50,048 bases of DNA from Porticoccaceae bacterium (GTDB lineage: Bacteria > Pseudomonadota > Gammaproteobacteria > Pseudomonadales > Porticoccaceae). The translations under genes were made by a program, and so were the position numbers. Within the stretch, counting starts at the first letter, position 1, and each line of letters begins with the position of its first letter. The stretch spans positions 1-50,048 of the forward strand of contig JABJEX010000033.1 in assembly GCA_018663035.1 (NCBI GenBank). The letters are read 5' to 3'. Below the pieces are notes generated by a model. That model was not told where the DNA came from, did no database searches, and saw only the letters and a program-made list of their open reading frames with translations. Positions 22,826 through 23,947 of the stretch are shown in pieces.

Positions 22826-23089
22826 ATGAAGAAGATTGAAAATGAAGATCAGTTAGTAAAAAAGGCCCTACAGGTTGGCGCTGTCTATGCTAAAAAGCGT
22901 GCCTATGGTGAGATTGAAGCTCAGGACTCGGTTAAGCTGAAGGTGGAGTTTATCTATAAGGTGTTGGTTGAAGATAAGCTAATTCAGCCTTTGGCTAAAG
23001 ACCAGATCAGTGATCCCAATATGCGCCACAAGCTAGCGCTGTGGATTTCTCGGCAGCTTCCAGCAGACCACCCTCTTTTAACCGAGTAA
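22826..23089 (+). CDS. Small conserved protein, resembles DUF5062
   Basis: This is an 87-residue charged, mainly helical protein of unknown function, with no signal peptide or membrane segment. The pattern KKIENEDQLVKKAL at the start, VEFIYKVLVEDKLIQPL in the middle and RHKLALWISRQLPADHPLL at the end resembles the DUF5062 family of marine gammaproteobacteria as I recall it. No cofactor or metal motif is seen. It lies 25 bases after purL on the same strand and may be co-transcribed. Real coding is supported by length and composition; the family name is only moderately sure. Confidence 0.65.
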   Translation: MKKIENEDQLVKKALQVGAVYAKKRAYGEIEAQDSVKLKVEFIYKVLVEDKLIQPLAKDQISDPNMRHKLALWISRQLPADHPLLTE

Positions 23090-23104: not shown

Positions 23105-23156
23105 ACCCAAATGTCATCCTGAGCCTAGTGAAGGATCTGTTGTGGATATTTTGGGT
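23105..23156. repeat. Hairpin repeat with a TCATCCTGAG...GAAGGATCT core
   Basis: ACCCAAA (23105-23111) pairs with TTTGGGT (23150-23156), and ATCCT (23116-23120) with AGGAT (23132-23136). The core at 23115-23138 matches a short interspersed sequence that recurs in many unrelated bacterial genomes. It lies just after the gene at 22826-23089 and is the first of three hairpins in this gene-free stretch. Confidence 0.55.
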
Positions 23157-23180
23157 TAACTTTTTATAGGGCAGGCTTAT

Positions 23181-23255
23181 CTGCCTCTTGGGCCTTTCAA
23201 GACACGACGTGAATACATCCCTGCTGGCCAGAGTCTTAAAACGCCCAAGAGACAG
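23181..23255. repeat. Imperfect inverted repeat, 23-nt arms
   Basis: Arms 23181-23203 and 23233-23255 are complementary with 3 mismatches. The 29-base loop contains GACGTGAATACATCCCTG (with the adjoining arm), a string I recall from interspersed repeats in marine gammaproteobacteria. No ORF here looks real. A REP-like or MITE-like origin is inference. Confidence 0.6.
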
Positions 23256-23311
23256 TTAAGCTTAAATATCGAGCATAATTGTAGTTTTATCTGATGTGCT
23301 GCGGTATTTCT

Positions 23312-23482
23312 GAAGTGTTCGGGTAGATCCTTGAGATCGGTCCCATGGGTACAGGTATTTTCAGCGTTCGCACAACTCGCGTTTCTCTTCGAGAAAAGCT
23401 CAGACAAGTACTCTCTCAATCTGAAAATACCTGCACCCATAAGCGGGCCCTGATTGATCTCAAGGATCTACCCGAACACTTC
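23312..23482. repeat. 171-bp palindromic element upstream of rnpB
   Basis: The outer arms 23312-23338 and 23456-23482 are perfectly complementary over 27 bases. The inner arms 23345-23364 and 23421-23440 match in 19 of 20, and GGTCCC (23339-23344) nearly pairs with GGGCCC (23445-23450). The 56-base centre holds a further small hairpin, TTTCTC/GAGAAA at 23382-23396. The element ends 36 bases before the mature rnpB 5' end, so it overlaps the likely rnpB promoter zone. Both strands carry short open frames that share a peptide only because the DNA is palindromic. Confidence 0.85.
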
Positions 23483-23518
23483 CCCCACCTCACTTCAACC
23501 TATGGTATCCTTCGCGCC

Positions 23519-23900
<382 letters not shown>

Positions 23901-23910
23901 GATAGAAAAC

Positions 23911-23947
23911 AAAAAGGGCCAGCACTTTTGTGCTGGCCCTTTTTGTT
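23911..23947 (+). terminator. Rho-independent terminator of rnpB
   Basis: A perfect 14-bp stem pairs 23911-23924 (AAAAAGGGCCAGCA) with 23931-23944, around loop CTTTTG and ending in T5. It begins 10 bases after the rnpB 3' end and separates rnpB from the mraZ promoter. Confidence 0.95.

Follow-up and report, generated by a model that had tools for sequence, protein, structure and literature searches.

The recombination sites of integron cassettes (attC) are used as folded hairpins, and on one strand only. REPINs are predicted to form hairpins in single-stranded DNA or in mRNA, and compensatory changes of their arms are common in spacers, according to the excerpted parts of PMC3116915, and TnpA-REP of Escherichia coli needs a bulge of the folded single strand (PMC8266576, likewise an excerpt). 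Further stem-loop families, among them PU-BIME, ERIC and BoxC, have been clustered by sequence similarity (PMC2267715, in the parts compared).

The stretch of DNA analysed here, hereafter the window, comprises 50,048 nucleotides of a Porticoccaceae bacterium (assembly GCA_018663035.1, contig JABJEX010000033.1) and carries a large palindrome upstream of rnpB. Of the known kinds, the REPIN is the closest to this palindrome and its relatives, which form a family that shares the logic of REPINs but not their marks. The likeness to REPINs and their RAYT enzymes lies in dispersed extragenic palindromes, a single-strand fold and compensating arm changes (PMC3116915, in excerpt), and that to the E. 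coli REP in one-sided bulges, comparable with its bulge-dependent recognition of a single strand (PMC8266576, in excerpt). The present family differs in its length of about 155–171 nt from arm to arm, its conserved apex and one-sided bulges, the absence of a GTAG/CGTC tag, its 1–20 matches per carrier genome and a RAYT in only 5 of 22 carriers. With the stem-loop families it shares that the repeats are intergenic and able to fold; it differs in preserving structure and loops across families with stems that are free in sequence, and the compared parts of PMC2267715 hold no description of it.

The palindrome at the rnpB locus

The outer arms of the palindrome (23312–23338 and 23456–23482) are complementary at 27 of 27 positions and the inner arms at 19 of 20, as found by a palindrome search of the window (Table 1). 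The 171-base palindrome is real, with arm matching far beyond chance. Folded as RNA, the minus strand reached -98.6 kcal/mol (z -13.2) and the plus strand -89.4 kcal/mol (z -12.3), none of 200 shuffles being as low in either case; with DNA folding, the minus strand gave -57.4 kcal/mol (z -12.7). The sequence-only reading, which had described a near-perfect palindrome with a very stable fold, was reproduced on this recomputation. The short stem of the window copy reads GGTCCC/GGGCCC with one mismatch, and compensating pairs substitute for it in other copies. Its apical hairpin (23379–23399) carries a 14-base extension relative to most copies, and the tip of this hairpin was read by eye as GAA at 23388–23390. 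A coding role of the element was rejected, the frames being broken by one-base length differences and by stops, as judged by eye from the alignment.

Table 1. Coordinates of the hairpin element and of neighbouring features in the window.
Feature	Positions	Strand	Basis
Whole hairpin element	23312–23482	-	Arms, fold, family model; strand from family mismatch bias, not R1 score
Outer arm distal to rnpB, 23 bp, sequence varies among copies	23312–23334		Arm complementarity, copy comparison
GATC, near-invariant in genus, pairs with 23456–23459	23335–23338		Family alignment
Short stem, pairs with 23445–23450	23339–23344		Covariation, helix 2
Inner stem, 19/20 with 23421–23440	23345–23364		Arm complementarity, covariation
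Conserved apical region (ATTGAGAGA, TGTCTGA, GAGTT, GAACG on minus strand)	23365–23420	-	Family alignments
Inner-stem partner of 23345–23364	23421–23440		Arm complementarity, covariation
Second one-sided bulge, GCTT on minus strand	23441–23444	-	Family alignments
Short-stem partner of 23339–23344	23445–23450		Covariation, helix 2
Conserved one-sided bulge, AATCA on minus strand	23451–23455	-	Family alignments
GATC, partner of 23335–23338	23456–23459		Family alignment
Outer arm adjoining rnpB, 23 bp	23460–23482		Arm complementarity, copy comparison
Likely -10 of rnpB (TATCCT), outside element	23506–23511	+	Sequence and relatives' comparison; inference
rnpB, RNase P RNA class A, neighbour outside element	23518–23901	+	RF00010, 325.9 bits

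The end of the palindrome is separated from the start of rnpB by 35 bases, and an 87-aa ORF (22826–23089) precedes it. Judged by the ORF translations, we take the gene ending further upstream to be purL and those after rnpB to be mraZ and rsmH. The suggestion that the palindrome must touch or replace the rnpB promoter stood in one part only: its end at 23482 adjoins the place of a -35 hexamer (about 23483–23488), but it does not reach the likely -10. A TATnnT directly before rnpB is common to the relatives whose upstream regions were compared, and a consensus promoter scan gave no site at all upstream of the window rnpB. We see no reason to call the palindrome part of the rnpB promoter. It replaces upstream DNA that strains lacking a copy have at this place, and the window copy probably leaves rnpB unaffected, or at most shields its upstream side; a local effect on rnpB in the window strain is conceivable. 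Just 3' of rnpB, a perfect 18-bp inverted repeat (23908–23947) is perhaps its terminator and is absent from the terminator-scan list.

Distribution and placement of the repeat family

That the palindrome is one copy of a multicopy dispersed family is well supported. Its own genome (G000) holds two copies, that of the window and one behind sucD (contig C77, locus L002). A blastn search found matches in 16 of 56 relatives, own genome included, all of them among the 35 genomes of the genus, which we take to be the SAR92 clade, and none among the 21 of other genera. The covariance model R1, built from 63 copies on the minus-type strand, matched 179 times within the genus, in 22 of the 50 genomes searched (1–20 per carrier, summed over rows); for the 28 genomes lacking a match, the filters were strict and some of the genomes are incomplete. 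The search for copies in the genome and its relatives, called for by the sequence-only reading, was thereby answered, and the same reading's non-autonomous mobile element agrees with a multicopy dispersed family, movement itself not having been observed. Across the order, R1 matched 22 of 293 genomes and 8 of 118 genera, with 19 genomes outside the genus; the matches were strong (E < 1e-9) in seven of the 19 (G037, G093, G144, G209, G222, G270 and G281, from four other families) and weak in the remaining 12. Searched against 369 genomes of the class, the broader model R2 added 17 genomes with matches, weak and mostly in the apical half; in a 398-genome sample of the phylum it matched, at low sensitivity, the own genome only. 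Both R2 searches used strict filters with 7–8 candidates scored per genome, and that of the phylum missed G109 and G142, weak already in the order-level search, so that absence there is weak evidence.

Because part of the copies are orthologous, neither alignment cells nor copies are independent; in addition, the majority of the genomes are split into many contigs, and misassembly of palindromes is possible. As a sign of dispersal, L168 and L169, both from one genome, share 91% identity over 286 bp, and by eye their flanks are unrelated. At the gathering threshold of Rfam 15 the family had no match, the window giving RNase P only and 19 distant loci nothing, and in a permissive scan only sub-threshold miRNA-precursor matches touched the element. 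Open-licence papers, judged from titles and the starts of abstracts, yielded no description of the family, and it has apparently not been described before. Carriage by phages or plasmids was rejected: a pattern scan for viral contigs gave 0, single plasmid queries with L160 and L006 had no match, and L006 had none in phages.

Genomic placement was read from the ORFs around 87 copies, 75 of which had both neighbours. Relative to the minus-type strand, the upstream gene was co-directional and the downstream gene opposed in 42 of the 75, the other classes being (-,-) with 22, (+,+) with 6 and (-,+) with 5 copies. The downstream neighbour was opposed in 69 cases and sense in 15 (p 2e-9, the copies not all being independent). 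Copies therefore tend to sit past the 3' ends of genes. Behind sucD, after its terminator, copies lie close by at 5 of 30 loci (G000, G018, G022, G056 and G057), some of the 30 being cut at contig ends.

A full copy stands upstream of rnpB at 9 of 38 loci (G000, G001, G008, G017, G022, G033, G057, G058 and G070), 17 of the 38 belonging to carriers. These loci were drawn from 45 genomes with an rnpB match, and two (L111 and L135) have fewer than 500 bases upstream; no intact copy is present in the DNA examined at 29 of them. The copy is opposed to rnpB in six genomes and has the same orientation in three. With G029, in which a contig ends in a copy behind the same 87-aa gene, the site is occupied in 10 of 18 testable carriers, four carriers being untestable. 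The rnpB-locus copies differ in arms and orientation; by eye, G016 has half a copy, and G018, G010 and G028 have an arm-like remnant only. At one locus (L126 of G057), three tandem copies spaced 190 bp apart lie directly upstream of rnpB. The copies at this site may have been inherited vertically with turnover, inserted repeatedly, or both. The recent arrival once suggested by the near-identical arms finds no support in this occupancy, nor in the well-matched arms seen family-wide, even between divergent copies; more probably, the window copy has long resided where it is, with the 87-aa gene on one side and rnpB on the other.

Several other repeats occur near or around the copies. In G270, six copies (L160 and L168–L172) of about 280 bp each lie inside inverted GGGGAC...GTCCCC repeats, and at L169 both enclosing repeats differ from those of the other copies in a matching way. 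Within the genus, inward GTCATY...GATCT repeats stand beside copies on 34 sides versus 7 in the control orientation (86 copies), and on both sides of a copy in only 5 of the 86. The window also holds a second, different palindrome (23175–23261) with 29-nt arms (86%) and the core GTGAATACATCCCTG; by eye, G033 has a similar core with other arms upstream of rnpB (L132), as have G010, G021, G012 and G015 behind sucD, and this looks like another family with variable, complementary arms. The sequence TGTCATCCTGAGCCTAGTGAAGGATCT at 23112–23138 belongs to a short repeat that is common in the loci examined; the hairpin loop of this repeat is often GAGCGNAGCGA, in 37 of 69 distinct copies under a loosely defined pattern, and resembles the tip of the large element. 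Short hairpins with a TGTCTGAGCGAAGCGAGTT apex, mostly devoid of bulges and several per genome, were seen at L181 (G142) and L182 (G109); this apex is a module common to different repeats. At L089, L048 and L008, copies of the large element occur in pairs, either adjacent to each other or flanking a small gene in inverted orientation. The inverted pair of L089 flanks a 273-aa ORF and was considered as a possible autonomous unit; inspection by eye found no transposase-like ORF.

Conserved structure, folded strand and apical loop

Along the minus-type strand, the element consists of an outer arm of about 23 bp, GATC, the bulge AATCA, a six-base stem, the bulge GCTT and an inner stem of 19–20 bp ending in ATTTTCAG; the loop strand ATTGAGAGA, a four-base stem and TGTCTGA follow, and after these a two-pair hairpin, GAGTT, GAACG and the return strand. 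In alignment A2, comprising the 64 of 90 copies left after removal of near-duplicates, 91.5% of 3520 cells are paired versus 73.6 in shuffles, and double-sided changes occur at 40 of 55 pairs. Compensating cells number 646 versus 195 in shuffles, and covariation is 0.453, compared with 0.129 in shuffled and at most 0.092 in slid alignments. Across families, 43 of 45 pairs are replaced in compensation (778 compensating cells versus 204), in an alignment fitted to the covariance model that leans toward pairing, and CAATCAGG, CGyTTA, TGTCTGAGC/GCGAGTT and ACCG are largely kept by eye. The stems are thus shown to be replaced by compensating changes, with bulges and apical loop conserved.

The outer arms follow the same pattern. 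Among 89 copies, the arms of one copy share 20.4 identities on average versus 5.2 when right arms are swapped among copies; 17 matches lacking an anchor, several of them repeats of one another, were left out. Arm length falls within 20–27 in 72 of the 89 (median 23 bp, extremes 2 and 54). A MITE of a DDE insertion sequence would have fixed terminal inverted repeats and a target duplication; the arms here are not fixed in sequence between copies. No target duplication showed in an unsystematic inspection, and no clean empty site or excision was seen. The idea that insertion had produced the arms by inverted copying of the target DNA, as G018 and G028 had been read, was rejected on account of this clustering of lengths; these two and G010 are better read as deletion derivatives that kept one arm. 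At the end of contig C26 of G029 (L022 / L099), the arms match over 54 bases to the contig end instead of the usual 23, possibly an assembly effect at the palindrome. A chimera at rnpB in G058 (L105:2270-2426 / L125), which alignment A4 omits as L105, has halves from different subfamilies and arms that have lost their pairing (6 bases), as if recombined within the conserved apex.

The mismatches that remain in the stems are unevenly distributed between the strands. In plus orientation, the imperfect cells of the 64 copies comprise 145 A·C and 36 G·T (p about 1e-16), the excess being 35 versus 6 by columns and 50 versus 7 by copies; on the minus-type strand of 23 distant copies, G·T outnumbers A·C by 30 to 9, in an alignment fitted to the model. 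An A·C cell seen from one strand is a G·T cell seen from its complement, so it is the minus strand that keeps its fold better, and the bias runs counter to the orientation used in drawing the structure. The minus-type strand is also the more stable in 60 of 64 copies, with RNA and DNA parameters alike, and in the consensus fold (-83.2 versus -70.5 kcal/mol), a difference that is partly the same signal as the mismatch bias. One main statistical signal thus supports the minus strand as the strand whose folding would be kept, and such a bias is not expected of a cruciform using both strands alike. As a control for G·U, the rnpB fold gave 281 to 3 for the sense and 223 to 15 for the antisense strand, and is uninformative because folding itself picks G·U pairs; by the same procedure, the element in plus orientation gave 129 A·C versus 33 G·U. 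The R1 scores of the two window strands (141 versus 40 bits) are not strand evidence, because R1 was built on the minus-type strand. In G022 and G017, this strand runs against the fork in 18 of 26 listed copies, which is not significant and assumes a terminus opposite dnaA; such an orientation would not place it on the lagging-strand template.

The apical tips of the 64 copies are GNA in 31, GNNA in 24 and others in nine, five of which are AAA, AAC or ATA; they were read from alignment columns, and three extended tips, the window copy among them, were not peeled by the script. The GNA and GNNA tips are closed by C-G in 50 of 55 cases, and the RNA-type GNRA accounts for only 3 of the 24 GNNA. 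On at least two G-C pairs, loops of these two types form extraordinarily stable DNA mini-hairpins, such as GCGAAGC with its melting point of 78 °C (PMC4686876, in excerpt). The family resembles them in that most of its tips are GNA or GNNA, usually on two G-C pairs, and differs as a genomic element from the oligonucleotides in which they are described there. The loop type moderately supports folded single-stranded DNA, rather than RNA, as the form that would be selected; the loop might also be preserved through binding of a protein, and the strand evidence would fit a transcript equally.

Candidate enzymes and competing explanations

We put at roughly 0.5 the probability that the palindrome is an undescribed REPIN-like, non-coding, non-autonomous dispersed element recognised as folded single-stranded DNA, a reading that is favoured by the GNA/GNNA loop type. 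The selected form would then be a folded single strand of DNA, the minus strand in the window. A putative single-strand nuclease, transposase or recombinase would recognise the one-sided bulges and the GNA/GNNA-capped tip, and would copy or move the element with a preference for gene 3' ends. Re-templating of one arm from the other is a candidate step, which would explain arms that vary yet still match, and other small palindromes may serve the elements as insertion sites or as companions in movement. A RAYT as the mobilising enzyme is not supported: its domain, Y1_Tnp (PF01797), is missing in 17 of 22 carriers and present in the other 5, and also in 3 of the 28 genomes with no match to the family, which makes 8 of 50 in the genus; the window's own genome lacks it, as do 7 of the 10 genomes with at least nine copies. 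The REPIN tag GTAG lies within 15 nt of the palindrome in 1 of 90 copies upstream and 1 of 90 downstream, not above shuffled flanks, and CGTC in 0 of 90 on either side.

An attC site would share with the element a strand-specific folded hairpin with one-sided extrahelical bases, and among the carriers G010 encodes an intact integron integrase and G057 a fragment. The integrase passes the cut-off in only 1 of 50 genus genomes, however, and is not supported as the mobilising enzyme; in addition, the stems are far longer than attC boxes and, by eye, A2 has no conserved columns resembling the GTT/AAC core boxes, so that an attC is scarcely credible. Control of rnpB in cis, for instance by an insulator or attenuation hairpin, could draw on the full upstream copy at 9 of the 17 carrier loci, on the tandem triplet and on G029. 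As a general role, it is made unlikely by the 28 of 50 genus genomes with no match, by the 29 of 38 rnpB loci lacking an intact copy, by the varying orientation to rnpB and by the recurrence of copies behind sucD and in many other intergenic places; the element, moreover, ends before the -35 position, and we regard such control, proposed in the sequence-only reading, as very improbable.

Structured non-coding RNA genes are a weightier competitor, although still unlikely: the minus strand would be transcribed, and its RNA would act either in trans or within 3' untranslated regions. Classic marks of RNA are present in the covariation, the conserved internal loops and the one-strand preference for G·T (G·U), and a -10-like GCGATAAT precedes the arm in one subfamily. 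That motif, however, is missing in the other subfamilies and in the window, the apical loops follow the DNA rule (GNA, GNNA) and are seldom GNRA, and with 0–20 matches per genome the family leaves 28 of 50 genus genomes with none. A passive palindrome, in which template switching between arms during replication rather than selection keeps complementarity and spread is by chance, would account for arms that differ at many positions between divergent copies and yet match, and for outer arms showing all four Watson-Crick pairs with few intermediates. Arm copying alone would not give bulges and an apical loop conserved across families, strongly strand-biased mismatches or an arm length held to 20–27 in 72 of 89 copies, and this explanation is improbable; arm copying may act together with selection.

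Beyond the REPIN-like reading itself, we offer a wider picture as a tentative and rather doubtful one: that Gammaproteobacteria harbour a widespread mobile hairpin DNA inherited as structure, of which one strand, with a DNA-type tip and one-sided bulges, would be read by a putative enzyme that is neither a RAYT nor an integron integrase, and each new copy of which may re-template one arm from its partner, leaving the arms free to diverge while they still match. The locus is a warning that a palindrome lying beside the rnpB promoter can belong to a resident repeat family. Covariation, the usual mark of functional RNA, may here mark functional single-stranded DNA, and loop type together with the G·T/A·C bias is suggested as a help in telling strand and molecule apart. 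If the proposed mechanism holds, a new enzyme of single-stranded DNA would act in these bacteria.
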